Part shown: one piece after another, positions 25,464-64,000 of the stretch
Position numbering within the stretch: position 1 is the first letter of the stretch
Layout: the number at the start of each line of letters is the position of its first letter
From: Brooklawnia cerclae
Lineage (GTDB): Bacteria > Actinomycetota > Actinomycetes > Propionibacteriales > Propionibacteriaceae
Assembly: GCF_011758645.1 (NCBI RefSeq)
Contig: NZ_JAAMOZ010000001.1
Span: 248,001 to 312,000, forward strand
DNA length: 64,000 bases
Direction of reading: 5' to 3'
Program-made: the position numbers and the translations under genes
Notes under the pieces: generated by a model
The model's database searches: none
The model's input: only the letters and a program-made list of their open reading frames with translations
What the model was told of the DNA's origin: nothing

Positions 25464-26123
25464 ATGTTCTTGACTACAGTCTTCCGGGCTACTCTTGCAA
25501 GTGTCGTCAGCACCTGCTACTTCTTGACGGCCTGCTCATCTACTGAGCAGCCCGATCTTGAACCGCTGCCACCGATAAGCGACTATGTGCCCTCAGACTG
25601 GGATATAGCTAAGTATGAGTCGAACCTAGAAAGTCTTGCGACAGAATACAAACTACAAGATCTTCCAGACGTTGCCATCGTACGGTGGGTTGATCCGGAG
25701 GATTCCATACCGTTGATGGTTGAGTGTCTTCAGGCTGCTGGTGTCGATGTCGTGCAGACGGATACTAGTAGCTACACTGTGGAGGCAGCGCCGGGCCAAG
25801 AGGACTCTGTCCATCTTGCTACCTATGTGTGCACGGCTCAGTATCCGACAAGAATGGATATTGATCGCCCGCTAAGTGATCTAGAGATGAAAGCTGTTTA
25901 TGACCACCTCGTTGATGAGTGGTTGCCATGCGCATCTGATCAAGGATACGAGGGGCTCTCGAAGCCATCATTTGAAGTTTATGCCCGGTCGCTGAGCGGT
26001 GAAACTGTGGATCCAGTCTACGAGGAGCTCAGCCGCAAGTATCAACCCAGTGATGAGGAGCTCCAAGCATTGATGGAAGCTTGTCCTCTGCGGCCGTCCG
26101 GGTTTAGGTCCTACCAGAGGTAG
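25464..26123 (+). CDS. Lipoprotein of an unrecognised Cys-containing family (intact member)
   Basis: 219 residues. A signal peptide ends in a lipobox, FLTAC (Cys near residue 24). The mature part has DYVPS near the start, IVRWVDP near residue 73, YVCTAQYP near 115, DRPLS, LPC near 154 and EAC near the end. The four mature Cys could form disulfides outside the cell. Two broken relatives lie at 27454-28185 and 28412-29076, sharing DYVPS (in one), IVRW[VI][DN]P, C-x-AQYP and the C-terminal Cys. Sampled G+C here is about 50 percent, below neighbouring genes, which suggests transfer. No function is known to me. Confidence 0.75.
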   Translation: MFLTTVFRATLASVVSTCYFLTACSSTEQPDLEPLPPISDYVPSDWDIAKYESNLESLATEYKLQDLPDVAIVRWVDPEDSIPLMVECLQAAGVDVVQTDTSSYTVEAAPGQEDSVHLATYVCTAQYPTRMDIDRPLSDLEMKAVYDHLVDEWLPCASDQGYEGLSKPSFEVYARSLSGETVDPVYEELSRKYQPSDEELQALMEACPLRPSGFRSYQR

Positions 26124-26128
26124 GAAAA

Positions 26129-26533
26129 GTGAAGGTATGCGGTAACGTTCAGCGGAAGGAGAAAGAATATGAAAAGGCAATCGCATCGCTTGCCATTGCT
26201 GTCATGGCGGTAATGGCCGGAGGATATGTTTCGGAGAGCCATGCGGATCCGATCTACCCGCAACAGTTGACGTGCTCGTCGGATCGAGTCGTCGCTAGCC
26301 AGGTCACGGCCATGGGGATGTCACCCTGGGTGCAGCACCAGCTGTGGTCTACCAACGGGACGCTTCGCGAGCAGCGATTCGATCGTCCTGCTCCGCTTCA
26401 GTGGTGGACCTCGCGCATGCTGTCACCCTTCAGTGCGATTCGCAACTCGAACGTTCTGACGAATGGCGACAGGCTCTCGTCGGACCAGACGTACACCTAC
26501 TGTGCGTACGTGGCTGGCCGAGTTGCTTCCTGA
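26129..26533 (+). CDS. Small secreted protein; start uncertain, possible frameshift
   Basis: 134 residues in the open frame from a GTG at 26129. A signal peptide with core AIASLAIAVMAVMAGG ends near SHA, followed by a mature part of about 95 residues with two Cys. A strong ribosome site (GGAAGGAG) precedes the ATG at 26169, but that ATG is in another frame and stops after 14 codons. One extra A in the AAAA run after it would give MKKAIASLAIAVM, a textbook signal peptide. Either the gene uses the weaker GTG or it carries a one-base deletion. It may be a bacteriocin-like or effector protein; this is a guess from size and neighbours. Confidence 0.55.
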   Translation: MKVCGNVQRKEKEYEKAIASLAIAVMAVMAGGYVSESHADPIYPQQLTCSSDRVVASQVTAMGMSPWVQHQLWSTNGTLREQRFDRPAPLQWWTSRMLSPFSAIRNSNVLTNGDRLSSDQTYTYCAYVAGRVAS

Positions 26534-26592
26534 ATCTCGTGATCTGATCTGAAGGTCCCTGACGATGAAGCAGCGATCTTCGGATATCGACA

Positions 26593-26637
26593 GCTGCGTC
26601 CGGGGTGAATCGTCTATCGACACACCCCGGGCGCAGC
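26593..26637 (+). terminator. Stem-loop after the small secreted protein gene
   Basis: A 15-bp stem (26593-26607 with 26623-26637), with one G-T type mismatch and a 15-base loop, lies 60 bases after the stop at 26533. No T-run follows. A terminator role is inferred. Confidence 0.45.
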
Positions 26638-26724
26638 ACTCGACCGATATTCTTGGCGTTCTGAAAACGCTTGGACTCACGAGTTGTACGCACGTCATTA
26701 TTCAGAATCTTGGAGAGACCCTAA

Positions 26725-27261
26725 ATGAGATGGTGGACAGGTGCAGTAGTCTCGATATCGGTGACTCTGATATGCCTTGGTTGTGGAACTTCATCTGAGC
26801 AATCTGAGTCGACATCGTCCGCGACCGTGGGCTTGGTCCCCGAAGGAGCCAAAGAAGCGTATGTCGGTTTCTTGACCACAGTATTCGAACTGGGTCATTC
26901 GACCGATATTAACGACTTCGCACAATTGAAGGAGTATTACAACGGTAATCAGTCTGAGTTCACAAATCCCGTTGTTCCTCTTCAAACGTTCTATGGGATA
27001 CGAACCGTCGTAGACAAGGACAATCTTGTACAGCTAAGGCCACATCCGGACTTTGCTGCCGCCGAGGACTCGATGTTCGTTCAAGCCTGTCTCAGCTCGA
27101 AGGCGGCGCCTCGCGAGGATATTGCTGGAGGTGGTCCGTATGCGGGCGCACCATATATGGTGAATCTAGTCTCGATCAGTCGAGGTGAAGATGGCGTGTG
27201 GAGGGTAACTGCCAGCATGCCCGAGGATGTGAATCCTTCTATATGCCCGTTCACTCGTTGA
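26725..27261 (+). CDS. Lipoprotein of unknown function
   Basis: 178 residues. The signal peptide ends in the lipobox LICLGCG (Cys near residue 20) and a Ser/Thr/Glu-rich tether follows. The mature domain (about 40-178) has two Cys, near 112 and 174. It does not share the IVRW or AQYP motifs of its neighbours and I do not recognise it. It is in the same AT-richer island and reads in the same direction as the first lipoprotein gene. Confidence 0.65.
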   Translation: MRWWTGAVVSISVTLICLGCGTSSEQSESTSSATVGLVPEGAKEAYVGFLTTVFELGHSTDINDFAQLKEYYNGNQSEFTNPVVPLQTFYGIRTVVDKDNLVQLRPHPDFAAAEDSMFVQACLSSKAAPREDIAGGGPYAGAPYMVNLVSISRGEDGVWRVTASMPEDVNPSICPFTR

Positions 27262-27453
27262 AACTCGGACGACGAGCTGAATTCTGTCTGCGACCTGTTC
27301 ACCATGCTTCTATTCGGTGCAGCGGCGGCAACGGGCGATTGATGCCTGCTGGTCATCTAGGCGCGACGACGGTCCACCGGGCACGGTTGCCCCGCAGTCG
27401 AATCCATAGTCGCTACGACATTCGGGAGCAATTACATTGGAAGAAGTCATGAG

Positions 27454-28185
27454 CTAGCGCCACAACTCCTCGAAGATGTCGTCCGACTCGCAGGTTTCCT
27501 CAACAGCATCCAACTCTTCTTGAGTCAGTGTCGTCCCCACTTCTCGGCTGAGCTGCATGGTGGGTGACCAAATCTGCGGGGAATTGAATGTCTCAATGAA
27601 CACATCTTCAGACGGCACATCGACCTCGTAGCCATGGTCTTCCACACAAGGAACTGATTCAGTCACATAATACCCGTAGAGCTCGCGCAGTTGCTCATTG
27701 CTGAGCGGGCGCATCCCGATATTGAACACCGGGTACTGCGCTTCGCAGATGTATTGCGCCAAATGGTATCCTCCGGCTGGATTGTCGATAGTTATACCTG
27801 TTCCTCCTCAGCTTTCGTCAACTTGGGCGGGGTACCCCGCTTCGTTTAGGCAGTCGACGATAACTGGAACATGCTCGGAAGGGTCAATCCACCGAACAAT
27901 CTCGACGTCAGGCACGTCAGTGAGATCAAATGCTTCGGCGAACTGGGCAAGAGCTTCTTCTCGAGCATCCAGGTCCGCCTGGAGTATCGTCGTCGCACCT
28001 GCAGATACTGGTGCCGAGAGGCCCGAATCCTGTGAGCTATTCGCCGCGCACCCGGCAAGCAGGATCAGGCAGGCGGCAACTGCGGTCAGCCTACCCATAC
28101 GCAGTACGAACTTGCGCTCATGTCGACTCCTCCTTGCGTAGTCAGCCAGACCTCGGTCACTGCGCCGCAACATTTTTCGCAACAA
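27454..28185 (-). pseudogene. Lipoprotein-family paralog interrupted by an in-frame TGA
   Basis: Two open segments in the same frame (28185-27808 and 27762-27454) are separated by a TGA at 27808-27810. Together they match the intact lipoprotein at 25464: IVRWIDP and DCLNEAGYP before the stop, then YICEAQYP, RPLS, a Val-Pro-Cys and a C-terminal Cys after it. The lipobox is LLAGC. The ATG with the best ribosome site (AAGGAGGAG before 28121) is out of frame with the lipoprotein frame, whose nearest ATG is at 28098, so a second lesion near the start is possible. Confidence 0.7.
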
Positions 28186-28411
28186 TCCCGCCCGATAGTG
28201 TTAACACGGCGAACAGGACCCCGGCGGCCATCCTTGATAGCTAACATCAGAATCTCCTCTGGGGTGAAACAACGTCAATGTCGCGTTCTTAACGCAATCA
28301 CCATCGGTTGGATCCGTCAAGAGCATAGGAAAAGGTTGCGCTATCTGGACTGGCGGGTCGGAGGGGGTCTTCGAGTGCTCTTGGAGATCGCGCGGTGTTC
28401 CGAAGCTGTCG

Positions 28412-29076
28412 CTACCGCTGGTAGTCGCGGAAACCCTCGGGGAGCAGCGAGCACTCGTCCTCGAGCCGGAGGCTGTAGGGCAGATCGGGGAACAGTACGT
28501 CCGTCATCCGCTCGCGGTCGATCGCTACCACCCCGTCGTAGTCGATCGACCGCCGGTAGGTGGTGTACGAGGGCTCCTCGATGCTCTGGATCCCGAGCAG
28601 ATTTTCCGCGCAAGGGATGAAGCCGTGCAGGATGTGGCGGTAGATCATCGTGATCTCCTCGCCCTGTATGGGGCGGTCTATGTCCGCACGAACAGGGTAT
28701 TGCGCCGAGCACTCGTATGCGGCCTTGTGGTAGGCATCCGCCTGCTCGTCGGAGAGGGTGATCGAGTGCGACCACCCGTCTGCGCTCAAGTGTGCGGCGA
28801 ACCCGAGCTCGCGAAGACAGCTGACCTGCACCGTGCTTGCCTCGTCCGGGTTCACCATCGGACGATCTCGTATTCCGGCATCCCCTGCAGCCCCTGGTCC
28901 GTCGCCTGCTCGTCGAGTCGGCTGTGATAAAGCTCCAGGTCTGCCGCGGACGGCACGTAGTCCTCGATGGCGGGCAGCGGCTCCACACTCGTGGGCGGCG
29001 CACTGCACGCTCCCAGCAGGCCGACTCCCAACAGACCAACCATCAGGGTCGCAGGTACCGCTCGCCGGAATCGCAT
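28412..29076 (-). pseudogene. Lipoprotein-family paralog with a one-base frameshift
   Basis: Start ATG at 29076, lipobox LLGAC, then IEDYVPSAADLELY and EIVRW, where a TGA follows at 28852-28854. Adding one G gives RWVNPDEA, and the frame then continues through YECSAQYP, DIDRPI, IPC, DEC and FRDYQR to 28412. The C terminus closely resembles that of the intact protein (FRSYQR). So it is a recently broken or misread copy. G+C is higher here than in the other two copies, so the copies have different histories. Confidence 0.72.
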
Positions 29077-29284
29077 GGTCGTACCGCTTTCGCTCGGTCC
29101 CGATCGACGACGGCGGGCACTCGCGTCCATGTGAGGCTTTAGGGATCGCCGTCGATCCGGGGTAGGGCTCGTGCTGACGTCCGTCACTCTATTGGTGCCC
29201 CACCCCGCCGTGTTCGAAGACGCGGACGAAATCTGCTCTTGCGGGTGAGATCTCGTCCGCAGATACGGAAATCATCCGCGTAAT

Positions 29285-29494
29285 TCAGCTGCCAAGGGGC
29301 CGCGACAATTGCTTGCGCCGTTCGTTCACGAGATAGCCGAACCACACGATGGCACCGATGATGTTGAGCACAATTACGACCAGCACCCACAGCAACCGTT
29401 CCTGGAGCGCCATCCCCCTGCGCAACAGGACAGTCACGAGCGCTGCGAGCACAATCACCTGCGGCAACAGTATCCATGCCTCTGCGAAGCTCAT
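29285..29494 (-). CDS. PLDc_N-type small membrane protein
   Basis: 69 residues. Two membrane helices (about 8-26 and 34-55) with a WVLVVIVLNIIGAIVWF core match the phospholipase D nuclease N-terminal domain seen alone in many small actinobacterial proteins. Function unknown. It stands apart at the edge of the lipoprotein island. Confidence 0.78.
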   Translation of the reverse strand: MSFAEAWILLPQVIVLAALVTVLLRRGMALQERLLWVLVVIVLNIIGAIVWFGYLVNERRKQLSRPLGS

Positions 29495-29670
29495 GTGGAT
29501 CCCTTCGAGGCGTCCCGACCGCCTTGGCAGGACGCGTGACTTGTCGATCGGCCGATGCCAGGGAGCCTAGCGGCGGCGCGGTGCGCGAGCGGGCGATTGG
29601 GCACAGCGTCGGTTCGTCGGGTTCGATCGGTCACCGCTCCGGCAGACCGGGCGGTGTCGGGGAGCATTCG

Positions 29671-31017
29671 TCAGAAGACGGACTGCGAGCCACCCACCTC
29701 GTCGGCCGGCCGGGCGCCACGGGTCGCCAGTGTCGCGGTCAGGCAGCCCAGGGCGAGGACGCCACCCAGGACGAGCCAGCCCGGCAGGCCGAACCGCAGG
29801 GCGGTGTTGGTGATCACCAACGGCGCGGCCATCGACCCGACGGACACGGCGAACGACTGGAACCCCTGATAGGCGCCCGCCCGGTCGCGCGGGGTGAGGC
29901 CGAAGCTGAGCGCCCAGGTGGCCGAGGACGACACCACCTCGCCCAGTGCGTGAACGGTCGCCGCCAGCACCATGCAGACGACGGCGCCCGTGACGGAGAA
30001 CTTCGCTGCCGCCCATGCCAGCACACCCGCCACGAGGAAGCCGAGCCCGGACCACAGCATCATGCGTCCGGCGCTCGGGATGTCCCTGGTCAGGCGTGAA
30101 CTCGGCACCTGCAGGGCGACGACGACGCCGGTGTTGATGAGCAGCAACGCCGACACCAGCGCGGGCGGGGCCGCGGTGTGGGCCGACACCCACTGCGGGT
30201 GGGCGACGTCGGTGACGGCGAAGTTCATCACCATCATGGCCGACCCGAGCCCCAGCACGATGAACCGCGGGTTGCGCCACGGCGAGACGCTCGGTTGCGG
30301 GGTGCCGGTCGTCCCGGCCCGGACGGTCTCGGCCGGATCGGCCTCGGGATCGTCCCCGGCGATTCCGGCGTCCGCCGAGCGGGGCAGCCGTAGCCCGATG
30401 ACCCCGGCGACGAGGTAGGCGGCAGCCGCGACCACCAGTGACACGCGGTAGGCCAGTTGGGTGTCGAGGGCCAGCGGGATCGCGGCCAGGCCGCTGCCGG
30501 CGGCGATGCCCGCGTTCGCCACCGTGCGCCACAGTGCCTGGGCCCGCACGCGTGCGGCCCCGGAGAAGCCCCGCGCCACGGCGGCCTGCGTGGCCGTGCC
30601 ACCGAACCAGGCCGCACCCTCGGCGAGGGCTGCGAGCGCGGTGAGCCAGATCAGCGAGCGGGGCGTCGCGTCCGGGACGAAGGCATACCCGCCCAACCCG
30701 ACCGCCTGGACGAAGAACGCCCCGCCGATCAGCAGACGTGCGGAAGCCCTGTCGGCGAAGTGCCCGCCCAGGTAGGACGAGGCCGCGCCCGCGATACTCG
30801 CGACGAACAGCACGGTGCCCACCGTCTGGATGGGCACACCCAGCATGCGGGTGAAGTACAGCGTGGTCAGCCCGAGGAACAACCCCCGGCCCAGGGAGCG
30901 CGCGGCCGAGGTCGCCAACAGGATCCACAGCAGTCGGTCGGAGCGGATCTCCTTGTAGAGCGTGAACAGTCGGCTGGGCACAGGCACGCGGGCCATCCAA
31001 CACCAAGCCCCTGACAT
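29671..31017 (-). CDS. MFS transporter
   Basis: 448 residues with about 12 hydrophobic segments split by a polar loop near residues 200-230, as in major facilitator transporters. The early loop carries Gly/Arg residues typical of drug-efflux members (YLGGHFADRAS). The substrate is unknown. An internal ATG at 30996 (MARVPVPS) is an equally plausible start. It is separated from typA by a short gap and may be co-transcribed with it. Confidence 0.85.
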   Translation of the reverse strand: MSGAWCWMARVPVPSRLFTLYKEIRSDRLLWILLATSAARSLGRGLFLGLTTLYFTRMLGVPIQTVGTVLFVASIAGAASSYLGGHFADRASARLLIGGAFFVQAVGLGGYAFVPDATPRSLIWLTALAALAEGAAWFGGTATQAAVARGFSGAARVRAQALWRTVANAGIAAGSGLAAIPLALDTQLAYRVSLVVAAAAYLVAGVIGLRLPRSADAGIAGDDPEADPAETVRAGTTGTPQPSVSPWRNPRFIVLGLGSAMMVMNFAVTDVAHPQWVSAHTAAPPALVSALLLINTGVVVALQVPSSRLTRDIPSAGRMMLWSGLGFLVAGVLAWAAAKFSVTGAVVCMVLAATVHALGEVVSSSATWALSFGLTPRDRAGAYQGFQSFAVSVGSMAAPLVITNTALRFGLPGWLVLGGVLALGCLTATLATRGARPADEVGGSQSVF

Positions 31018-31047
31018 TGGCCAGTCCTGGGCGCGCCGGACGCTCGG

Positions 31048-31062
31048 GACCGGCAGCCGGTC
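31048..31062 (-). terminator. Short stem-loop after typA
   Basis: GACCGGC, one A, then GCCGGTC: a perfect 7-bp inverted repeat directly after the typA stop. No T-run. It may attenuate read-through into the MFS gene. Confidence 0.35.
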
Positions 31063-31063
31063 G

Positions 31064-32932
31064 TCAGACCCGGGGGTTCTTGGCCCGCGTCCTGGCCTTC
31101 GCCCGGTCGTGGGCGCTGAGAGCCACCTTGCGCACCCGGACGATCGAGGGAGTGACCTCCAGGCACTCGTCCGGGGCGCAGTACTCCAGCGACTGCTCCA
31201 GGCTCATCTTGCGCGGCGGGATCAGGCGTTCGAGCTCGTCGCCGGTGGACGACCGCACGTTGGTGAGGTGCTTCTCCTTGGTGGGGTTGACGTCCATGTC
31301 GTCGGGCCGGGCGTTCTCGCCCACGACCATGCCCTCGTAGGTCTCGTCGCCGGGCGAGATGAACAGCACCCCGCGCTCCTGGAGGTTGAACAAGGCGTAG
31401 GCGGAGACGATCCCGCTGCGGTCGGCGACCAGCGACCCGGTGTTCCGGGTGCGCATCTCGCCCACCCAGGGGGTGTATCCCTCGAAGACGTGGTTCATGA
31501 TGCCGGTGCCGCGCGTCGCGGTGAGGAACTCGGTGCGGAACCCGATCATGCCGCGCGAGGGCACCACGTACTCCATGCGCACCCAGCCGCTGCCGTGATT
31601 GGTCATCTGCTCGAGCATGCCCTTGCGGGTGCCGAGCAGTTCGGTGACCGTGCCCAGATGCTCTTCGGGCACGTCGATCGTCAGGCGTTCGGTGGGCTCG
31701 TTGACCTTGCCGTCGATGATCTGGGTGACGACCTCGGGCTTGCCGACGGTCAACTCGAAGCTCTCGCGGCGCATCATCTCGACCAGGATCGCCAGCTGCA
31801 GCTCGCCGCGTCCCTGCACCTCCCAGGTGTCGGGACGATCGGTCTGCAGCACCTTGATCGAGACGTTGCCGATCAACTCCTGGTCGAGCCGGTTCTTCAG
31901 CAGCCGGGCCGTGAGGTTCTTGCCCGAGCGTCCGGCCAGCGGTGAGGTGTTGATGCCGATCGTCATCGAGATCGAGGGCTCGTCCACATGGATGAGAGGC
32001 AACGGCCGCGGGTCGTCGGGGTCGGACAGCGTCTCGCCGATCGTGATCTCGGGAATGCCGGCCACCGCGATGATGTCGCCGGGACCGGCCTGCTCGACCG
32101 GGACGCGCTCCAGCGCGCGGGTGATCAGCAACTCGGACAGCTTCACGGTGGTGATCGAGCCGTCGCGGCGGCACCAGGCCACCTGCTGGCCGCGCTTGAT
32201 GGTGCCCTCGACGATGCGGCACAGCGCCAGCCGGCCGAGGTAGGGCGACGAGTCCAGGTTCGTGACGTGGGCCTGCAACGGGGCGCCCTCGGTGTAGGTG
32301 GGGGCGGGGATCGAGGTGCGGATCACCTCGAAGAGCGGCTCCAGGTCGTCCGAGTCGGGCATGCCCCCGTCGGCGGGCTGGGCGAGCGAGGCGCGACCGG
32401 CCTTGGCGGACGCGTAGACGACCGGGAAGTCGAGCCCGTGGTCGTCGTCGTCCTCCAGCAGGTCGAGGAACAGGTCGTAGGTCTCCTCGATGACCTCGGC
32501 GATGCGGGCGTCCGGGCGGTCGACCTTGTTGATCACGAGGATGATCGGCAGCTTCTTGGCCAATGCCTTACGCAGGACGAAGCGCGTCTGCGGCAGCGGG
32601 CCCTCGGACGCGTCCACCAGCAGCAGTACCCCGTCGACCATCTCGAGGCCACGCTCGACCTCGCCGCCGAAGTCGGCGTGGCCAGGGGTGTCGATGATGT
32701 TGATGAGGATGTCGGAGCCGTCGTCCATCGTGTGGTGGACGGCGGTGTTCTTCGCGAGGATGGTGATGCCCTTCTCGCGTTCCAGATCCATCGAGTCCAT
32801 GACCCGGTTGTCGACGTCGGCACCCTCGCGGAAGGCGCCGGATTGCCACAGCATGGCGTCGACCAGGGTGGTCTTGCCGTGGTCGACATGGGCGACGATC
32901 GCGACGTTGCGCAGGTCAGAGCGGATGGGCAT
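31064..32932 (-). CDS. typA: Ribosome-associated GTPase TypA/BipA
   Basis: 622 residues. It is a translational GTPase of the EF-G family involved in ribosome assembly and stress growth. G1 is AHVDHGKTT, G3 DTPGHADFGGEVER and G4 NKVDRPDA. The C-terminal half includes the BipA-specific SRGMIGFRTEFLTATRGTG. I chose the ATG at 32932 (MPIRSDLRN), which has GGGAGA upstream; a longer frame to 33232 is unsupported. Confidence 0.95.
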   Translation of the reverse strand: MPIRSDLRNVAIVAHVDHGKTTLVDAMLWQSGAFREGADVDNRVMDSMDLEREKGITILAKNTAVHHTMDDGSDILINIIDTPGHADFGGEVERGLEMVDGVLLLVDASEGPLPQTRFVLRKALAKKLPIILVINKVDRPDARIAEVIEETYDLFLDLLEDDDDHGLDFPVVYASAKAGRASLAQPADGGMPDSDDLEPLFEVIRTSIPAPTYTEGAPLQAHVTNLDSSPYLGRLALCRIVEGTIKRGQQVAWCRRDGSITTVKLSELLITRALERVPVEQAGPGDIIAVAGIPEITIGETLSDPDDPRPLPLIHVDEPSISMTIGINTSPLAGRSGKNLTARLLKNRLDQELIGNVSIKVLQTDRPDTWEVQGRGELQLAILVEMMRRESFELTVGKPEVVTQIIDGKVNEPTERLTIDVPEEHLGTVTELLGTRKGMLEQMTNHGSGWVRMEYVVPSRGMIGFRTEFLTATRGTGIMNHVFEGYTPWVGEMRTRNTGSLVADRSGIVSAYALFNLQERGVLFISPGDETYEGMVVGENARPDDMDVNPTKEKHLTNVRSSTGDELERLIPPRKMSLEQSLEYCAPDECLEVTPSIVRVRKVALSAHDRAKARTRAKNPRV

Positions 32933-56087: not shown

Positions 56088-56534
56088 CTAGACGCAGGTC
56101 TCCTCGAAGGGGCAGGTGGAGCAGTCGAACGAGTTCACGCAGGGCGTGAGCGCGTGCGCGAATGCCAGGTCGAGCAGTCGGCGGTATTCGTCGACGGTGT
56201 CGAGGTTGAGCGTGTAATGCACTCGCGGGCCCACCTGCTCGCGATTCACCCAACCCGCGCGGTAGAGGATGCCCAGGTGCTTGGTGGTGGTCGGCTGGCT
56301 GATGCGCAGCGTCTGGGCGACCTCGGTCACCGACAGGGGGGCCTGCCCGTGGGAGCCCAGCACCTTGATCATCTTCATCCGGACCGGGTAGCCCAGCGCC
56401 GCCTGGAGCTCGCAGGCCCTGTCGACCAGGCCCCTCGCGCGAGTGGGTGTGCTCGTCGCGCGAGGGGCCATCGGTTTGCTCGTCCCCGCGCGAACCGGTA
56501 GTTGCCCTGCGGGTCTGAGGTCGGATGAGGTCAC
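56088..56534 (-). CDS. ArsR-family regulator with C-terminal Cys cluster
   Basis: 148 residues. The winged helix (about 48-120) reads SVTEVAQTLRISQPTTTKHLGIL for its recognition part. The C terminus has four Cys (C-x5-C-x2-C-x5-C: CVNSFDCSTCPFEETC), a possible metal or Fe-S site. It lies 62 bases beyond the SRPBCC gene in the same direction and may control the flavoprotein operon or the HypA cluster. The effector is unknown. Cys clusters of this kind differ from the ELCVC-type arsenic site. Confidence 0.8.
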   Translation of the reverse strand: MTSSDLRPAGQLPVRAGTSKPMAPRATSTPTRARGLVDRACELQAALGYPVRMKMIKVLGSHGQAPLSVTEVAQTLRISQPTTTKHLGILYRAGWVNREQVGPRVHYTLNLDTVDEYRRLLDLAFAHALTPCVNSFDCSTCPFEETCV

Positions 56535-56596: not shown

Positions 56597-57394
56597 TCAG
56601 GCATGCCGCGCGCCGAGCGGCCGCGGCCTCGCGTCGTCCGACCAGACCCCCATCCGGCGGACGACCGAGTCGACCAGCGACGCGGGCTGGCGTCCCTCGG
56701 CGAGCTGCTTGACCTTCTCCAGCATCTTGCGGACCATGAACACCGACGGGCTTCCGAGGATGATCACCACGAGTGCCTTGGGAATCAGCTTGTTGAAGGG
56801 CCGCATGGTGGTGTCGCAGCGGTTCACGAAGCGGGTTCGGCCGTTCGGCAGTTCCTGGAGGACGAAGTTCCACGTCCAGGCGAACTGCTTCAGGCCGAAC
56901 GGCGGTAGCAGCGCCATGCCGCCCTGGGCCGTGGGCGGCCGGCGGGTGTCGGACAACGACGTGAAGTACTCGCCCGGCTTGACGTCCATGATCTGGGAGC
57001 CGACACCGGCCTGGTGGTAGAAGAGGAAGTCGCCCACCTCCACGTCCTGCCAGTCCTCGACGTAGTCGAAGGTGTTGTAGATGTGGAAGGTGAACAGCCG
57101 CTCCAGCCAGGCCAACGCGTACCAGCCGCCCTTGCGGGTGCCGAGTTGCGACAGCACCTCCCAGACGACCTCTCGCGGCGCGTCGATCTCGATCTCCTCC
57201 TGAAGGCGCAGGAAGGGGTCGTCCTTGAACAACAGGTCGTCGCCCGGCAGGGGCTCGGTGAGCTTGTCCTTCGGGCTCCAGGCCTTGCGGCCGTGCACCC
57301 AGAAGTAGCTGAAGATCGCGGTCGGGACGCCCACCGCGCACAACGCGGCGAGCTTGGCCAGTTGGGCGGGGCGGGGTCTTGTCGGATGGAACAC
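56597..57394 (-). CDS. Membrane-anchored SRPBCC-family protein
   Basis: 265 residues, GTG start at 57394 with GGAGG upstream. One N-terminal membrane helix (about 11-30) precedes a SRPBCC/polyketide-cyclase-like barrel (IEIDAPREVVWEVLSQ opens it, ~residue 65 on). SRPBCC proteins bind hydrophobic ligands. A second hydrophobic helix (about 213-230) lies near the end. It is 10 bases after the flavoprotein gene, so the pair acts together, possibly handing a ligand to the flavoenzyme. Confidence 0.75.
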   Translation of the reverse strand: MFHPTRPRPAQLAKLAALCAVGVPTAIFSYFWVHGRKAWSPKDKLTEPLPGDDLLFKDDPFLRLQEEIEIDAPREVVWEVLSQLGTRKGGWYALAWLERLFTFHIYNTFDYVEDWQDVEVGDFLFYHQAGVGSQIMDVKPGEYFTSLSDTRRPPTAQGGMALLPPFGLKQFAWTWNFVLQELPNGRTRFVNRCDTTMRPFNKLIPKALVVIILGSPSVFMVRKMLEKVKQLAEGRQPASLVDSVVRRMGVWSDDARPRPLGARHA

Positions 57395-57404
57395 GGTCGG
57401 CCTC

Positions 57405-58547
57405 CTACCGGGCGAGCTTGTTGAGGACCTGGTGGGCGGCGTACACACCCGTGATGGCGGTGGGCTCCAGGCCGAGCCCGTTGTGGTCGCCGGCGACGTA
57501 GGTGCTGTCGCCGTACTGCTGCTCGATGTACGCGCGTCCTTGCACATACATGGCCTTCGTCCAGCCCTTGCGGCTGATCACCTCGTGCTCGATGAAGTAC
57601 TCGCTGAGGTCGATCTCCGGCAGTCGGCTGTAGATCAGGAAGGAGCCGTCGTCCTGGCGGGCCGTGAAGATGACGGGCGAGGTGAACGGGAACAGGTTCA
57701 TCTCCTGGTCGGCGAACACCGGGCGCAACCGGCCCCACGCATGCACGACGTACAGCTGGCAGGTCTGCCGGACCTCACCCAGGCCGAGGAACTCGGCGGT
57801 GACCACCGGCGGGGTGGCGAAGACGACGTTGGCGGCCTGCACGGTGCTGCCGTCCGCAAGCTCCACGGTGTGGAGGCCGTCGTCGGTCACGGAATGGCCC
57901 GTGACGACGCCGCGGACGAAATGGTCGCCGAGGCGCCCCAGCTCGGCCTTCTCGTCGAAGGAGAACCGGTGGATCGGCAGCACCAGCCCCTGGCAGACGT
58001 TGAGGAAGTCGAGCGCGGTGATCGTCCCCATGTCGACCCCGGTGCAGGCGTAGGAGAACTTCGAGACGTAGTCCTCGGCCACCTTCCCGAGCCGATAGTG
58101 GGCGATCAGCCGTTCCGCCGGCTGGTGGAACAGACGCGCGATGTAGGGGTCGCGTTCCATCGCCTCGCGCTGCGACATGTACTCGCAGTCCTTCTTGAAC
58201 CGCTCGTAGTGGCGAATGAAGTTCGCCATCACCGCACCGAAGACGGCGAACCCGGGCGCCCGTCGCAGGGTGTTGAGGCTCAGCGTCGGGAACGACTTGC
58301 CCCGCCCGTCGTGGAAACGGCACGAGAGCGGATCGATGCGAGTGCGCCGGGTGATCAGCTTCTCGGCGTTGTGGTAATTGGCCATCACGAAGTAGGCGCC
58401 GAAGTTCACCCCCTCGTCGGCCGAATAGCAGATGCGCCCGCCCAGCGTGTCGGAGACGAGGACGAAGTCCGCGCCCCCGTCCTGCAGGGTGTGCGCACAA
58501 CTCAGACCGGCACTACCAGCACCAACGACGACGGCGTCGTGGATCAT
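57405..58547 (-). CDS. FAD-dependent oxidoreductase (amine-oxidase/desaturase-like)
   Basis: 380 residues. The N terminus VVVGAGSAGLSCAHTL is the FAD-binding Rossmann motif, and GDHNGLGLEPTAITGVYAAHQV near the end is reduced to its key GDHNG...AITGVYAA, the usual C-terminal FAD contact. There is no Fe-S motif. TAGGAGG lies 6 bases before the ATG at 58547. The substrate is unknown. It is divergent from hypA, with a shared 200-bp promoter region containing palindromes. Confidence 0.8.
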   Translation of the reverse strand: MIHDAVVVGAGSAGLSCAHTLQDGGADFVLVSDTLGGRICYSADEGVNFGAYFVMANYHNAEKLITRRTRIDPLSCRFHDGRGKSFPTLSLNTLRRAPGFAVFGAVMANFIRHYERFKKDCEYMSQREAMERDPYIARLFHQPAERLIAHYRLGKVAEDYVSKFSYACTGVDMGTITALDFLNVCQGLVLPIHRFSFDEKAELGRLGDHFVRGVVTGHSVTDDGLHTVELADGSTVQAANVVFATPPVVTAEFLGLGEVRQTCQLYVVHAWGRLRPVFADQEMNLFPFTSPVIFTARQDDGSFLIYSRLPEIDLSEYFIEHEVISRKGWTKAMYVQGRAYIEQQYGDSTYVAGDHNGLGLEPTAITGVYAAHQVLNKLAR

Positions 58548-58571
58548 GGTGACCTCCTATAGCAGTTCTGG

Positions 58572-58684
58572 TATGGGCACCATAGCAAGCGTTGCCAGGG
58601 CCCGTCGCGGCACCCCCCAAGGTTTCCGGGCCACGCGTTCGGAGACGCGGTAACCGGATTGACGAGTCATAGCGGAATGGCTAT
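58572..58684. promoter_or_regulatory. Divergent promoter region with two small palindromes
   Basis: TATGGGCACCATA (58572-58584) is a 13-base palindrome and ATAGC-N6-GCTAT (58669-58684) is a second inverted repeat. ATAGC also occurs at the edge of the flavoprotein ribosome site. They are candidate binding sites for the ArsR-family protein or for another regulator of hypA and the flavoprotein gene. Function is inferred from position only. Confidence 0.45.
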
Positions 58685-58747
58685 ATTCGCAAGTGAGAGC
58701 AGTTGGGAGTGCGATGATGCACGACATACTCGTCGTGGTGCCGGGCC

Positions 58748-59098
58748 ATGCATGAACTCGGGGTGACTCGGGCGGTGCTGAAGGTGGTGCTCGCCGAGGC
58801 GAACGAACGCGGCCTGACCTCGGTGGTCGGGATCACGCTGACGGTGGGGGAGATGCACGGTTTCGAGCAGGAGTGGATCCAGCGCTATTTCAGCGCCGCG
58901 GCCCGGGGAACCGCAGCGGAAGGTGCCCGCATCACGATGGTGCCGGTGCCGCCGCGGTTTCGTTGCAGGTTGTGCGAGGCGGACTTCGCCATCGACGTGC
59001 GCCGGGATCGCGTCCCCCGATGCCCTCGCTGCCACGCGCGCGACTACGAACTGCTCGCGGGCAAGGAACTGATGGTCACCGGTATGCAGGCTTTCTGA
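58748..59098 (+). CDS. hypA: Nickel-insertion protein HypA
   Basis: 116 residues. The N-terminal MHEL supplies the nickel ligands of HypA (His2, Glu3), and the zinc domain has CRLC and CPRC (Cys73, 76, 92, 95). HypA delivers nickel to a target with the GTPase HypB. In this window there is no hydrogenase or urease gene. An Fe-S protein gene follows at 12 bp. Confidence 0.9.
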   Translation: MHELGVTRAVLKVVLAEANERGLTSVVGITLTVGEMHGFEQEWIQRYFSAAARGTAAEGARITMVPVPPRFRCRLCEADFAIDVRRDRVPRCPRCHARDYELLAGKELMVTGMQAF

Positions 59099-59109
59099 TC
59101 GGAGCGGTC

Positions 59110-60141
59110 GTGGACAACCCTGAGATCATCGAATCCCCGATGGGACGCATGAACGTCGACCGGAACGGGAACGTGCTCTTCCTCGACGAGGAGCGGCTGA
59201 ACCGCAAGGAGCAGCCCGACAAGCCTGTCCGGCGGAACCGCCCGCGTGGCCTGGGAGTCAAGGATCTCCTCGTGTCCTGCGTGGGCGCAAAGCCGGTGAA
59301 CTACGGGCTCTTCACCGCGGCGTTCCGGCTCCTGGTCAGGTGCATGAAGAGATTCCTGAGGCGTCCGGGGATCGGCCGGAACCTGTTCCGCCGGGTCATG
59401 ATGGTGGGCCCGGTCGACGAGCCGTCCGGATACACCAAAGGTGTCTGGCTGCCGCTCGACGTCGATCTGTCCGACCACTCGGGGAGCGAACGTGTGCCCT
59501 GGGACCTACTCGAACAGGCGATCCGCTCGTCCACCTACATCGGGGGCCTGAACCGGTGCATCTGCCGGGAGACCTTCGGGTGCAGCGACTTCCCGCACGA
59601 CATGGCCTGCATGTTCTTCGGCCGGAGCGGCGAGGTCGTCGTCAAGAACGGGATCGCCGAGCGGCTCACACCGGAGCAGGCGCTGGAACGCGTGGCACGC
59701 GCCAAGGGCCTCGGCCTGAACGCCGAGGCGGTGCACGTCGAGTTGGAACAGTATGTCTGGGGTCTCAAGAACCAGGACATGGAACAGTTCCTCGAGGTGT
59801 GCTTCTGTTGCCCCTGCTGCTGCGTGGCGATGAAGTTCTGCCGCGAGGGGACCCGCGACATCAAGGACCGGTGGACTCCGAGCGGCTGGACCGCGACCAT
59901 CGACCAGGACGCCTGCATCGCGTGCGGTTCCTGCGCACCCGCCTGTCCCCAGGAGTGCATCGGCTTCGACGAGGACGGCGTTGCCAGCATCGACCAGGAG
60001 CACTGCATGGGCTGCGGCTACTGCGTGGCGGCCTGCCCGGCGTCCGACTGCATCAGGATCCGCCAGACGATGCCCATGCGCGACTCCATCCACGACTACT
60101 TCCTCGCCGAGGACGGCTTCGATCTGAAGGCCGGATACTGA
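59110..60141 (+). CDS. Multi-cluster Fe-S protein
   Basis: 343 residues, GTG start with GGAG 5 bases upstream. It has three Cys zones. First, C150-x-C152-x5-C158 and C167 (CICRETFGC and following). Second, C-x-C-C-P-C-C-C at 231-238. Third, two ferredoxin C-x2-C-x2-C-x3-C motifs at about 269-279 and 299-309, each followed by Pro, for two [4Fe-4S] clusters. The first two zones recall the Cys-rich domain of ferredoxin-like proteins in anaerobes. No signal peptide; a cytoplasmic electron carrier or scaffold. It lies between hypA and hypB, so an unusual nickel/iron assembly is possible. Confidence 0.82.
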   Translation: MDNPEIIESPMGRMNVDRNGNVLFLDEERLNRKEQPDKPVRRNRPRGLGVKDLLVSCVGAKPVNYGLFTAAFRLLVRCMKRFLRRPGIGRNLFRRVMMVGPVDEPSGYTKGVWLPLDVDLSDHSGSERVPWDLLEQAIRSSTYIGGLNRCICRETFGCSDFPHDMACMFFGRSGEVVVKNGIAERLTPEQALERVARAKGLGLNAEAVHVELEQYVWGLKNQDMEQFLEVCFCCPCCCVAMKFCREGTRDIKDRWTPSGWTATIDQDACIACGSCAPACPQECIGFDEDGVASIDQEHCMGCGYCVAACPASDCIRIRQTMPMRDSIHDYFLAEDGFDLKAGY

Positions 60142-60200
60142 CCCCCTGCCGGCCCGGCCATGAGGCCACCCGCCGCGCGTGAACCGAAGGGAAGCGGATT

Positions 60201-60875
60201 GTGAGTGAGATCACCCTGATCGACATCAAGGAGAACATCCTCGCCGACAACGACGAGGCGGCCGCCAGAGTCCGTGCCGCTGCCGACGCGGCCCGGACAT
60301 GCCTGATCAACGTGATGGCCTCGCCCGGGGCCGGGAAGACGAGCCTGATCCTGGCCACATTGGATCGCCTTGCCGGAGTGCGGGCCGGGGTGATCGAGGG
60401 AGACATCGACTCCCTCGTCGACTCGGAGATCTTCGCGTCGCGGGCCGTGCCCGTCGTCCAGATACGCACCGGCGGCGCCTGCCATCTGGACGCCCCCATG
60501 GTCGAACCGGCCCTCGCGCGACTCGACATGGGAGGCATGGACGCCGTGTTCGTCGAGAACGTCGGCAACCTGGTCTGCCCGGCGGAGTTCGACATCGGCG
60601 CCGACGCGCGGGTCATGCTGCTGTCGGTGCCCGAGGGGGACGACAAGGTGCTCAAGTACCCGCTGATGTTCAGCGTGAGCGATGCCCTGGTCGTCACGAA
60701 GACCGACTATCTCGACGGCCCCGGCTCGGACTTCGACGTCGCGCGGCTCACCGAGCGCGTGCGGGCGCTGAATCCGCGGATCGCGGTGTTCCCCGTCTCG
60801 GTACGAACCGGGGAGGGCATGGCCGACTGGGTGAACTGGGTCGACCGCCTCATCGGCTCGAAGACCGGCCTGTGA
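60201..60875 (+). CDS. hypB: Nickel-chaperone GTPase HypB
   Basis: 224 residues, GTG start. P-loop ASPGAGKT (40-47), GDIDSLVDSE, the metal-binding GGACHLD (Cys94, His95) and NLVC (Cys126), and KTDYLD (guanine recognition) are the HypB landmarks. The N-terminal CxxCGC high-affinity nickel site seen in some HypB is absent. GTP hydrolysis should drive metal release to HypA or its target. It follows the Fe-S gene by 59 bases and precedes the radical SAM gene by 1 base. Confidence 0.9.
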   Translation: MSEITLIDIKENILADNDEAAARVRAAADAARTCLINVMASPGAGKTSLILATLDRLAGVRAGVIEGDIDSLVDSEIFASRAVPVVQIRTGGACHLDAPMVEPALARLDMGGMDAVFVENVGNLVCPAEFDIGADARVMLLSVPEGDDKVLKYPLMFSVSDALVVTKTDYLDGPGSDFDVARLTERVRALNPRIAVFPVSVRTGEGMADWVNWVDRLIGSKTGL

Positions 60876-60876
60876 C

Positions 60877-61968
60877 ATGCGGCGCCCGGTTGTCGATCAG
60901 GATCAACTGGCCGACAGGGAGCGTGCCCTCTCCGGGCTCCGCCGCCTTGAGATCGAGTTGACCCAGATCTGCAATCTGCAGTGTGACTACTGCTTCGTCA
61001 CGCGGAACCTCCAGCAGCCGACTACGCGACCGATGGCCGAGGAACTCCTTGAGGCCATCGCGGCCACGGTCTCGACGCTCAGTTCCCCCGAGGGGGTCGA
61101 GGTGGTGCTCACCGGGGGTGAGCCCCTCAGCTGCTGGCCCTCCGTCGTGCGCGCCGTGGAGATCTTCGCCGGAGCGCTCGGCCCTCGGCTCGTGGGGGCG
61201 AGTGTGCTGACCAACGGCACACTTCTGCGTCCCGACCGGGCGGCATGGCTCGCCGAGAACCGCGTCCGGGTGACGGTCGGGTTGGACGGCACCCAGGAGG
61301 TCCACGACGCGCATCGCCGCAACAGCGTCGGCATCGGATCATGGCGACGAGCCTTCCGGGGAGCGTCCTCGCTGGTGGACGAGGGCATCGTGCCGGATGT
61401 CTCGATGGTCGTCGCAGACGGCGACTGCGCGAGCCTTTCCCAGGGGATCGAGTGGGTGTGCGACGCCCTCGGCCCGGCGACGCTGTCGGTGGTGCCGGCG
61501 GCGCCTCCCACGCTGGGCGGGTCGGTCCCGCGGCCGGGGCCGGAGGAATGGGCGGAACTGATCGTGGCGCTGCACGACCGGGCCCGGACGACGGGCACTC
61601 GTGTCGCGCCCGTCGCGGACGTGGTCGACGCGATGACCGATGGCGTGCCGATGCTGCATTCCGACGACGGCGCGTGGGGCGGATCCATGGCGGTGGACGT
61701 GCACGGCAACGCCGGGCCCAGTCTCGAACTGCTCAGTGCGGGTGTCGGTGCCGTCGCGCTCGGCTCGCTCGACCTGGCATCCGGGCCCTTCCAGCGGTGG
61801 CGGGACCGATCGCCCGCTCGCAACGCGGAATGCCGTGAGTGCTCAGCCCTGGGGCTCTGCGGCAACGCGTCCATGTACGCCAGCACGGCTGCGGGGGGAT
61901 CGCCGGCGGCCCGTGACCCGTGGCACTGCCGCATGCAGCGGCATCTCGTGAACGCCCTGGAGGGATGA
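60877..61968 (+). CDS. Radical SAM protein with SPASM-like C terminus
   Basis: 363 residues. CNLQCDYC (Cys32, 36, 39) is the [4Fe-4S] C-x3-C-x2-C that cleaves S-adenosylmethionine; LTGGEPL follows. The C-terminal region has C319-x2-C322-x5-C328 and C351, the SPASM/twitch pattern that binds a second cluster, with a Gly-Asn after C328 in place of a further Cys. SPASM enzymes often modify peptides or make cofactors; no precursor peptide is evident nearby. It starts one base after the hypB stop, so it is likely part of the hyp operon. Confidence 0.86.
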   Translation: MRRPVVDQDQLADRERALSGLRRLEIELTQICNLQCDYCFVTRNLQQPTTRPMAEELLEAIAATVSTLSSPEGVEVVLTGGEPLSCWPSVVRAVEIFAGALGPRLVGASVLTNGTLLRPDRAAWLAENRVRVTVGLDGTQEVHDAHRRNSVGIGSWRRAFRGASSLVDEGIVPDVSMVVADGDCASLSQGIEWVCDALGPATLSVVPAAPPTLGGSVPRPGPEEWAELIVALHDRARTTGTRVAPVADVVDAMTDGVPMLHSDDGAWGGSMAVDVHGNAGPSLELLSAGVGAVALGSLDLASGPFQRWRDRSPARNAECRECSALGLCGNASMYASTAAGGSPAARDPWHCRMQRHLVNALEG

Positions 61969-61975
61969 GCCCGGC

Positions 61976-62557
61976 CTATCGCGGAGCGCGCTCGTCCGGC
62001 GTCCAACCCACGAGGCGAAGGCTGCCACTCACGTGTTCCCGTACGCGATCGGCGGGGCTCGTCGTCACCACGCCGTAGACCATGCGCAGCGTCAGCAGTA
62101 CCTCGTCGACGGTCAGTGAAGCGGGGACGAGGCCCGCCTCGTGTGCCGCGCCCAGCGGTTCGGTGAGCAGTTCGCGCAGACGTTGCGTCCCGTCGTAGGC
62201 GGCGAGTCTGCCACGTGCGTCCACGGCCATCTCGATGAAGGCCGACACCTCGATCGTCAGATCCACCAGGCGGCGCCACAGGTGCTCGAAGGTCGCGGAG
62301 TCGCCGGACGCGGCGATCGCCTCGAGCTCGTTGAAGTTCTCGTCGAAGACGGTCAGGGCCAGATCGAGCCGTGTGGGGAAGTGCCGGTACAGCACCCCCT
62401 GGCCCACCCCGGCCCTCCGGGCGATGGCGTTGAGGGGGACGTGATATCCGCGCTCGGCGAACAACGACCGGGCCGCCGCGAGGATCGCCCTGCGGTTGGC
62501 GGCCGCGGCCGCAGGACCTCGGTTGATTCCGTTGCCTCGCTGCGTCGGGTCAGGCAT
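61976..62557 (-). CDS. TetR-family transcriptional regulator
   Basis: 193 residues. The HTH (about 23-70) is AILAAARSLFAERGY to GVLYRHFPTRLDLA. The C-terminal part is a ligand-binding helical domain. It is divergent from the flavoprotein gene at 62612, with a palindrome between them, so it probably represses that gene. It is convergent with the radical SAM gene, 7 bases away. Ligand unknown. Confidence 0.88.
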   Translation of the reverse strand: MPDPTQRGNGINRGPAAAAANRRAILAAARSLFAERGYHVPLNAIARRAGVGQGVLYRHFPTRLDLALTVFDENFNELEAIAASGDSATFEHLWRRLVDLTIEVSAFIEMAVDARGRLAAYDGTQRLRELLTEPLGAAHEAGLVPASLTVDEVLLTLRMVYGVVTTSPADRVREHVSGSLRLVGWTPDERAPR

Positions 62558-62574
62558 TCTGGGAGTGTATCAAT

Positions 62575-62592
62575 CCGGACAGTGGTGTCCGG
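62575..62592. promoter_or_regulatory. Candidate TetR operator
   Basis: CCGGACA-GTGG-TGTCCGG: perfect 7-bp arms with a 4-base centre, between the divergent TetR and flavoprotein starts and 20 bases before the latter ATG. The position fits a repressor site for both genes. Confidence 0.65.
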
Positions 62593-62611
62593 TACGAGCA
62601 AAGGAGCAGCC

Positions 62612-64000
62612 ATGTCCGAGTCCTTCGACCACACCTTCGATGTCGTCGTCGTGGGGACCGGGGGTGCGGGGTTCGCGACCGCGCTCGGTGCGGTCGACTC
62701 CGGCCTCAGCGTCCTCATGCTGGAGAGCACGGACAAATGGGGCGGCAGTACCGCGATGTCGGGCGGCGGACTGTGGCTGCCCAACAACCCACTGATGCAG
62801 CGCGCGGGCGTGGCCGACTCCCGTGAGGAGGCGCTCGCCTACATGGAGGCCACCATCGGGGACGTCGGCCGAGCGACGTCGCGTGAGCGCAAGGAGGCCT
62901 TCGTCGACGGTGTGGCCGATCTCGTCACGACCGCGCAGAAGCACGGCATGGTCTTCTCGCGCGCAGCGGACTACCCGGACTACTACCCGGAACTGCCGGG
63001 CGGGAAGATCGGCCGAGCCATCGAGACCCGTCCGATCAACACGAAGGTCATCGGGGAGTGGTGGGACACCCTGCGTGGCGCCATGCCGATGCCCGCCAAG
63101 ACCGACGACGTCTGGCTCATCCAGCGCGCCTGGTCGACCCCGGCCGGCTTCCGGCGGGGCGCACAACTGGTGTTCCGAACCCTGGGATCGGTGGTGCGCG
63201 GTCAGCGCCTGGCCGGCATCGGGGTCGCGCTGGCGTCCTCGTTCCTGCAGGCCGTGGTGCTGCGCAACCGGGTGCCGCTGTGGCTCGACAGCCCTCTGGA
63301 GTCGCTGGTCGTCGAAGACGATCGGGTCGTCGGCGTCCGCGTCCAACATGAGGGACGATCTGTGGCCATCAGGGCCAAGCGGGGCGTCATGCTCGCAGGT
63401 GGCGGCTTCGACCACAACGTCGCCTGGCGTGAGAAATACCAGGGGATCCACGGCGATCCCTCGGGTAACCCGGGCAACCTCGGGGGGCCCATCGCGGCCG
63501 CCCAGGACGTGGGCGCCGCCCTGGAACTGATGGACGATGCCTGGTGGGGCGCCTCGGTGGCCCCCGCGCCGGGCGGCCAGCCGTCGTTCATCGTCGGAGA
63601 GCGCGCGCTGCCGTACACGATCATCGTCGACGGCTCGGGCGAACGCTTCGCCAACGAGGCCGAGTCGTACGTCGATCTCGGGCACCACATGCTCGCCCAT
63701 GACAAGGACGGCGACTACTGGATGATCTGCGAGGTGCGGCACGCCATCCGCTACCTGCGCACGTTCGCCCTCGACCCGAGGAACAACAAGGCATCGGCGG
63801 ACGCCGGCCTGCGGTTCACGGCGCGCTCGATCCCCGAACTGGCCCGCAAGCTCGGCATCGACCCCGCACGGCTCGAATCGACGGTACGGCGGTTCAACGG
63901 GTTCGCCCGCGCCGGCGTCGACGGTGACTTCGGCCGGGGCAACTCCGCCTACGACCGCTACTACGGTGATCCCACCGTGCACCCGAACCCCTGCCTCGGC
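62612..64000 (+). CDS. FAD-dependent dehydrogenase, 3-ketosteroid dehydrogenase/fumarate reductase type (3' truncated)
   Basis: 463 codons are visible and open to the window end; the gene continues. GTGGAGFATALGAV is the FAD-binding site, WGGSTAMSGGGLWLPNN is the KstD/flavocytochrome-c signature, and LAGGGFDHN follows near residue 265. The family oxidises ring systems or reduces fumarate-like acids; steroid substrates are one option, but no other steroid genes are in view. AAGGAG lies 5 bases before the ATG. Confidence 0.83.
   Translation, partial: MSESFDHTFDVVVVGTGGAGFATALGAVDSGLSVLMLESTDKWGGSTAMSGGGLWLPNNPLMQRAGVADSREEALAYMEATIGDVGRATSRERKEAFVDGVADLVTTAQKHGMVFSRAADYPDYYPELPGGKIGRAIETRPINTKVIGEWWDTLRGAMPMPAKTDDVWLIQRAWSTPAGFRRGAQLVFRTLGSVVRGQRLAGIGVALASSFLQAVVLRNRVPLWLDSPLESLVVEDDRVVGVRVQHEGRSVAIRAKRGVMLAGGGFDHNVAWREKYQGIHGDPSGNPGNLGGPIAAAQDVGAALELMDDAWWGASVAPAPGGQPSFIVGERALPYTIIVDGSGERFANEAESYVDLGHHMLAHDKDGDYWMICEVRHAIRYLRTFALDPRNNKASADAGLRFTARSIPELARKLGIDPARLESTVRRFNGFARAGVDGDFGRGNSAYDRYYGDPTVHPNPCLG

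Follow-up and report, generated by a model that had tools for sequence, protein, structure and literature searches.

A cysteine-rich Fe-S protein encoded between hypA and hypB in Brooklawnia cerclae, a candidate client of HypAB metal delivery

The window analysed here is a 64,000-nucleotide stretch of the Brooklawnia cerclae genome (NCBI RefSeq assembly GCF_011758645.1, contig NZ_JAAMOZ010000001.1, positions 248,001 to 312,000 of the forward strand), in which a four-gene operon on the plus strand (58748-61968) encloses a gene for an iron-sulfur (Fe-S) protein between genes for HypA and HypB. The tightly spaced genes are hypA (58748..59098), encoding a nickel metallochaperone; the Fe-S protein gene (59110..60141, GTG start), encoding 343 amino acids (aa) and proposed here as the Ni-Fe-S client of the pair; hypB (60201..60875), encoding a GTPase nickel chaperone; and a radical S-adenosylmethionine (SAM) enzyme gene (60877..61968), which starts one base past the hypB stop. 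The initial annotation, made from the letters alone, had described hypA and hypB as flanking an Fe-S gene in a tight operon, which is upheld by Pfam and NCBIfam matches and by the coordinates. The three Cys-rich zones it had noted in the intervening protein were likewise found, at C150-C167, C231-C244 and C269-C314.

The window HypA scores 92.4 bits against PF01155 (cut-off 28.9) and stays below the equivalog TIGR00100 for the hydrogenase maturation type (73.6 bits, cut-off 88.1). Its N-terminal MHE nickel motif and its zinc ribbon (CxxC...CxxC) are both present. HypB matches TIGR00073 with 228 bits (cut-off 121) and retains the metal residues of the G domain, namely the CH in TGGACHL and the C in NLVC, while carrying neither the His-rich nor the CxxCGC N-terminal extension known from HypB proteins. 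One HypA and one HypB are found above cut-off in the whole genome. In the general model, as given in the excerpted text of PMC12134894, HypB binds nucleotide and HypA, nickel triggers hydrolysis, and Ni-loaded HypA hands over the metal. Almost every sequence collected in this work, like those of the window, conserves MHE in HypA and CH and C in HypB.

The Fe-S protein is composed of an N-terminal helical part, a Cys-rich core and a C-terminal 2[4Fe-4S] ferredoxin domain (C269-C314), of which Pfam and NCBIfam recognise only the last, through Fer4 models. The Cys residues of the core are arranged as C150-x-C152-R, C158, C167, C231-F-C-C-P-C-C-C238 and C244. In an alignment (A2) of 54 rows picked from the window, L034 and the 80 loci described below, C150, C152, R153, C158, C167 and C231 to C238 (six Cys in eight residues) are invariant, as are seven of the eight ferredoxin Cys, with C309 almost so. 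AlphaFold2 modelled the full protein with a predicted local distance difference test score (pLDDT) of 91.9 and a predicted template modelling score (pTM) of 0.90. Among the matches listed, solved structures found by sequence or by fold aligned with the ferredoxin part, the full model matching ferredoxin domains of unrelated enzymes. The core modelled alone reached a pLDDT of 76.4, with a best Foldseek E-value of 2.9 and no VIA match at Z >= 2; a missing match is not the same as a new fold. Searches of plasmids gave matches to part of the Fe-S protein only, and it was not found in a scan of viral contigs (viral_contigs).

A comparable arrangement is the isr operon of Acetobacterium wieringae ISORED-2 (PMC10134865). 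This isoprene-induced operon encodes IsrA (901 aa), a putative isoprene reductase, together with two HypA, HypB and a 350-aa 4Fe-4S ferredoxin, the gene for which is flanked, by locus tag, by hypB and a hypA (PMC10134865). The full arrangement was found only in two A. wieringae strains, and the host genome is without hypCDEF and without [NiFe]-hydrogenase. The first ~270 aa of IsrA align with the isr ferredoxin, and the proposed nickel site is a Cys6 arrangement that includes two CxC motifs (PMC10134865). In the present alignment of 13 IsrA-like N-termini, several of them near-copies, C150, C152, C167, C231 and C233 occur in 12 rows and R153 in all 13, the odd one out (L157_6) being a spurious frame. 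At the level of sequence, the core CxCR...C...CxC is thus a match to the IsrA N-terminus, and the Fe-S core corresponds, by this criterion, to the N-terminal "cluster V" domain of IsrA in stand-alone form. From this correspondence, the Fe-S protein would most likely be a low-potential reductase. IsrA-like genes adjoin hypA and the Fe-S gene at two of the collected loci (L042, L043), with no hypB within 3 kb there.

The motif CFCCPCC served as a search pattern. A scan of species genomes gave 144 Fe-S relatives, of which the best 80 loci were kept, and hyp genes were counted as linked when on the same strand and within 3 kb of the Fe-S gene. Open reading frames (ORFs) around these loci, and in the urease region discussed below, were picked mechanically and are in the wrong frame in places. 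Judged by their titles, the sources are largely gut Clostridia, Eggerthellaceae, Anaerolineae and sulfate reducers. Both hypA and hypB lie beside the Fe-S gene at 40 of the 80 loci, spanning Bacillota, Actinomycetota, Chloroflexota and Campylobacterota, and the strict order hypA-FeS-hypB recurs at 32, all Bacillota, so that chance adjacency is very unlikely. At the present loci, ferredoxins of the isr build are associated with HypA and HypB. Just before the unit, on the opposite strand, a TetR gene of one family is found at nine of the 32 strict-order loci. On a tree of the Fe-S protein holding 76 of 81 possible rows (L085, L091, L096 and L111 were omitted as partial or fragmentary, and L099 dropped out for want of a recognised start codon), the hyp-linked label is clustered, not confined to one clade, and changes 10 times as against 25.6 when shuffled. 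Two loci (L115, L117) hold tandem arrays of six or seven paralogs of the Fe-S family.

In a sample of the class of B. cerclae, Fe-S matches were obtained in three of 394 genomes at E 1e-10, two of which cover part of the protein, and in a sample of its phylum in 89 of 396 genomes at E 1e-8; among the phylum matches listed, G613 holds the only near full-length close relative besides the own genome, with 49% identity. Within the family sample of 197 genomes, HypA occurs in 39 and in none of the seven other genomes of the same genus, and the Fe-S protein in two, the own genome and a broken fragment in G969. The absence of HypA from these congeners and the presence of the Fe-S protein in so few family genomes would fit a gain by transfer. 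The G969 fragment (L120:5759-6062) is ~72-76% identical to the Fe-S gene, and no hyp match was found in the 16 kb examined around it.

The HypA proteins of the collected loci fall into two length classes. Among 48 sequences (47 from the loci and that of the window), 31 are ~80 aa long and keep the HE nickel motif, with the zinc ribbon missing and both CxxC gone; an example is L053:9712-9951, part of a clostridial hypA-FeS-hypB unit. Both CxxC are present in 15, including the window sequence, and two mis-framed ones (L064, L088) were placed in neither class. When four full and four short HypA were aligned, the short ones proved to lack the ribbon and to retain the flanking strand. The gap from a short hypA to the Fe-S start is 1-206 bp in 30 measured cases, and at most 87 bp in 29 of them, which is too small to leave room for a ribbon.

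The genome of B. cerclae (3.79 Mb, 98.5% complete) gave no match to the [NiFe]-hydrogenase large subunit (PF00374), to HypD (PF01924, the only one of HypC-F searched genome-wide) or to the catalytic subunit of prismane/carbon monoxide dehydrogenase (CODH; PF03063). A hydrogenase large subunit with hypC-F elsewhere in the genome, which the initial annotation had named as contrary to its proposal, is thus absent as far as PF00374 and HypD can tell. Its statement that no client enzyme and no hypC-F are in view holds for the window, but the genome-wide search that it suggested, run for hydrogenase, prismane/CODH and urease, did reveal a urease operon past the right edge (~67.9-72.4 kb in window coordinates; G000:C1:315929-320411, L151:4930-9412). 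This operon encodes UreD, UreG, UreF, UreC and a UreAB fusion, followed by ATP-binding cassette (ABC) transporter genes with an SBP_bac_5 binding protein; UreE was not recognised among the eight ORFs scanned there. Next to it, at L151:4643-4879 (~67.6-67.9 kb in window coordinates), an ORF consists of near-identical short repeats and is probably a repeat array between genes. A second GTPase of the G3E type, with Cys motifs, is encoded elsewhere in the genome (L152:3546-5304; G000:C1 ~2585.5-2587.3 kb) and adjoins what appears by eye to be a probable substrate-binding protein.

Possible clients were compared in 51 genomes, comprising the own genome and those of 50 of the 80 loci, with searches for HypD, prismane, HypB, urease and IsrA (at most 18 IsrA candidates scored per genome). 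HypB was above cut-off in 50 of the 51, HypD was found in 22 and prismane/CODH in 20. The urease model matched in nine genomes at E 0.001 and in six above the Pfam cut-off; three of the six are strong (E below 1e-45), and the other three are weak partial matches taken as other amidohydrolases. Full-length IsrA relatives were found in 10 genomes, plus one split copy. IsrA (~900 aa) was not found in the own genome, where the best matches span only residues 350-851 of the query, the GltD-like part. Among the 27 genomes with the strict gene order, four have HypD, seven prismane, one a strong urease and 16 none of the three, or 14 if all weak urease matches are counted (L046 and L064 are among the 16). 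None of the 27 has an intact IsrA; in G799 it is represented by two pieces on two contigs. Since 16 strict-order genomes are without HypD, prismane/CODH and a convincing urease, and intact IsrA is found in none of the 27, gene content points to the Fe-S protein as the likeliest client of HypAB. HypD is present in the genomes of 11 of 15 loci without both hyp genes, as against 11 of 35 with both (Fisher p 0.012, uncorrected for kinship), as if the hydrogenase set could stand in where the locus is without hyp genes of its own. The earlier idea that HypAB serves a client other than hydrogenase is thus supported, HypD occurring in only four of the 27 strict-order genomes. The conserved four-gene system it was tied to is not: the comparison of gene order it had called for brings out HypA, HypB and the Fe-S protein, and leaves the radical SAM gene unconserved.

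Better conserved further partners, overlooked in the initial annotation as the urease was, are encoded on the minus strand upstream of hypA. The nearest is an FAD (flavin adenine dinucleotide)-dependent oxidoreductase gene (57405..58547), divergent from hypA, with relatives at 16 of the 80 loci, 15 of which were aligned; profile matches in the PDB place its product within the flavin amine oxidase superfamily. A polyunsaturated fatty acid isomerase was tried as its identity, from a match at E 0.00088 to PDB 2b9w ("putative aminooxidase"), which we take to be the Propionibacterium isomerase; as this entry ranked behind 44 other listed amine-oxidase or related FAD-fold sequences, the identity was kept as a lead and not adopted. 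The next gene (56597..57394, GTG start at 57394 inferred) encodes an SRPBCC-like protein with an N-terminal hydrophobic segment, which has no Pfam match (Polyketide_cyc2 is sub-cut-off, E 0.077) and relatives at 17 of the 80 loci. The third gene (56088..56534) encodes an ArsR-family regulator (HTH_20, 36.5 bits, cut-off 27) with relatives at eight of the 80 loci, whose Cys tail C-x5-C-x2-C-x5-C (C132, C138, C141, C147) is invariant in all nine rows, the window counted, and is possibly a metal or Fe-S sensing site. The oxidoreductase, the SRPBCC-like protein, the Fe-S protein, HypA and HypB occur together at five Chloroflexota loci (L073, L076, L081, L082, L088), at four of which ArsR is also present, L073 being cut by a contig end.

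From the gene layout, the intergenic region between the two divergent halves (58548..58747) is presumed to hold the promoter or operator of both; only short or imperfect dyads, and no convincing operator dyad, were found upstream of hypA. The GC content and third-position GC content of the locus genes are close to those of their neighbours, with the FAD oxidoreductase and Fe-S genes slightly lower in GC. In the window as a whole, GC falls to 0.62 at 24001-32000 and is 0.68-0.71 in the remainder. Directly 3' of the radical SAM gene, 61976-64000 holds a TetR gene (minus strand) and a gene for an FAD enzyme that presumably resembles 3-ketosteroid dehydrogenase.

The radical SAM protein matches PF04055 with 59.9 bits (cut-off 29.5) and carries CxxxCxxC at 32/36/39 and C-x2-C-x5-C at 319/322/328. 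The initial annotation had placed a radical SAM/SPASM enzyme one base after hypB, and both the spacing and the radical SAM assignment stand; at E 0.01 none of the Pfam models for SPASM gave a match, so that the SPASM label rests on the Cys motif and on sub-cut-off NCBIfam alignments. The protein probably carries one auxiliary cluster of the SPASM/twitch type. Its nearest NCBIfam families are peptide maturases, and the best 25 of 69 models all stay far under their cut-offs, the top one being PapB (79.7 of 340 bits). In the flanks examined around the 40 loci that have both hyp genes, where some contigs end soon after hypB, no radical SAM relative was seen except a weak one on the opposite strand in L055 (E 0.049). 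The gene is treated here as what looks like a local addition to the operon.

The reading favoured here, with slightly better than even confidence, is that the gene between hypA and hypB encodes a compact, IsrA-like Ni-Fe-S reductase matured by HypAB. HypA and HypB would deliver a metal, in all probability nickel if the leaning taken here is right, to the core CxCR...C...CFCCPCCC, forming a Ni-Fe-S centre there; metal insertion into the Fe-S protein by HypAB seems reasonably probable, and nickel as the metal is a choice leaned towards with some reserve. The C-terminal 2[4Fe-4S] ferredoxin domain of the same protein would relay electrons to this centre, the FAD oxidoreductase and the SRPBCC-like protein would either act on the substrate, by preparing or binding it, or supply electrons, and regulation of the locus would fall to the ArsR with its Cys tail. 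It could be speculated that the centre reduces conjugated C=C bonds of a hydrophobic substrate, an activity suggested by the analogy with IsrA only and regarded as rather doubtful.

Several points weigh against this reading. The metal and the activity of the Fe-S protein are predictions, and the urease of the own genome could use HypAB. There is no linked hyp gene at 35 of the 80 loci and hypA alone at five, some of them cut by contig ends, while one genome (G777, L067) carries Fe-S and IsrA-like genes and no HypB above cut-off. Where HypD is present (11 of the 35 hypAB loci), HypAB may also serve hydrogenase. The absences rest largely on metagenome-assembled genomes, whose gaps may fake single absences, less easily 16. 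The evidence from conservation is partly circular: as CFCCPCC was a search pattern, only the other invariant positions are independent. Finally, in PMC10134865, IsrA and not the ferredoxin was made the nickel client, because no HypA/HypB association had been seen for the ferredoxin.

A rather improbable alternative is that the Fe-S protein is a mere electron carrier and that HypAB matures a different nickel enzyme, such as an IsrA-like oxidoreductase, encoded elsewhere. A ferredoxin does accompany IsrA in the isr operon (PMC10134865), and L042 and L043 have IsrA-like genes next to hypA and the Fe-S gene. Yet neither the own genome nor any of the 27 strict-order genomes yielded an intact IsrA among at most 18 candidates scored per genome, and the stand-alone protein retains the CxCR...C...CxC core, for which a plain ferredoxin has no need. 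HypAB of the own genome might instead feed urease, as it does in Helicobacter pylori, its place around the Fe-S gene being incidental. The urease operon with its adjoining ABC transporter genes just right of the window, in which UreE went unrecognised, speaks for this, as does the statement in the excerpt of PMC12134894 that HypB-type GTPases are required for urease too. However, hypA-FeS-hypB recurs in urease-free genomes (a strong urease in three of 51, any above cut-off in six), and the own urease has its UreG, UreF and UreD, while hypAB is co-operonic with the Fe-S gene instead; the explanation is improbable.

Two further alternatives concern what HypAB acts on or with. HypAB may deliver a non-nickel metal, or act as a GTP-driven pair for folding or Fe-S assembly. 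The lack of the ribbon in 31 of 48 HypA implies that HypAB of those genomes is no longer of the hydrogenase type, but the near-universal retention of the HypA and HypB metal residues speaks against this alternative, which is considered quite unlikely. The one-base gap between hypB and the radical SAM gene, and the peptide maturases as best NCBIfam neighbours, would suit a cofactor-modification pathway or one resembling that of ribosomally synthesised and post-translationally modified peptides (RiPPs). The radical SAM enzyme would then have the Fe-S protein or a peptide as its substrate, and HypAB would insert metal into the modified product. Such a pathway appears very unlikely, given that the other hypA-FeS-hypB loci have no radical SAM neighbour in the flanks examined, bar that of L055, and that the NCBIfam scores are so far under their cut-offs.

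To our knowledge, few classes of nickel enzyme are known. A stand-alone Fe-S protein linked to HypAB, in genomes that yielded neither the hydrogenase marker HypD nor prismane/CODH nor urease, is a candidate for a new one. As a tentative suggestion, offered with more doubt than conviction, this class would consist of compact Ni-Fe-S reductases, matured by HypAB and not dependent on hydrogenase, CODH, urease or IsrA, that reduce unactivated or conjugated C=C bonds in isoprenoid, terpenoid, unsaturated fatty acid or steroid-like substrates. It would be widespread among anaerobes of gut and sediment, and in the Clostridia its mini-HypA would be free of zinc. No description of the HypA-FeS-HypB unit outside the isr operon, of a ribbon-less HypA or of an ArsR-FAD-SRPBCC-FeS-HypAB cluster turned up in searches of the open-access PMC literature, judged mostly from titles and abstract openings. 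The present loci bear on a question left by PMC10134865, namely which isr protein gets nickel, and the ribbon-less HypA should be useful for probing the role of the zinc ribbon. Should the protein indeed reduce C=C bonds, this would bear on what becomes of isoprene and, by a speculative link, possibly on biohydrogenation in the rumen and gut.

Compared with known systems, the radical SAM protein resembles PapB and other SPASM peptide maturases in its radical SAM core and C-terminal Cys motif, but differs in scoring far below the equivalog cut-offs. HypA and HypB resemble those of [NiFe]-hydrogenase maturation in matching the Pfam and NCBIfam families and in keeping the metal residues, whereas the own genome shows neither hydrogenase large subunit nor HypD. 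Nickel delivery to urease, by UreDFG or, in Helicobacter pylori, by HypAB, has its counterpart in a genome that encodes urease, although the urease operon is separate from hypAB and has its own UreG, UreF and UreD. The closest likeness is to the isr operon. In both, hypA and hypB flank a gene for a ~350-aa 4Fe-4S protein, and the lack of hypCDEF in the isr host (PMC10134865) is paralleled by the absence of HypD matches in the own genome. Unlike the isr operon, the own locus has one HypA instead of two and no IsrA found in the genome, and it is linked to FAD oxidoreductase, SRPBCC-like, ArsR and radical SAM genes. The isr ferredoxin is predicted to hold a single cluster, whereas the window protein has two ferredoxin Cys4 motifs, and the likeness to the isr ferredoxin (VUZ27135.1) lies in length, domain order and gene order as described in PMC10134865.

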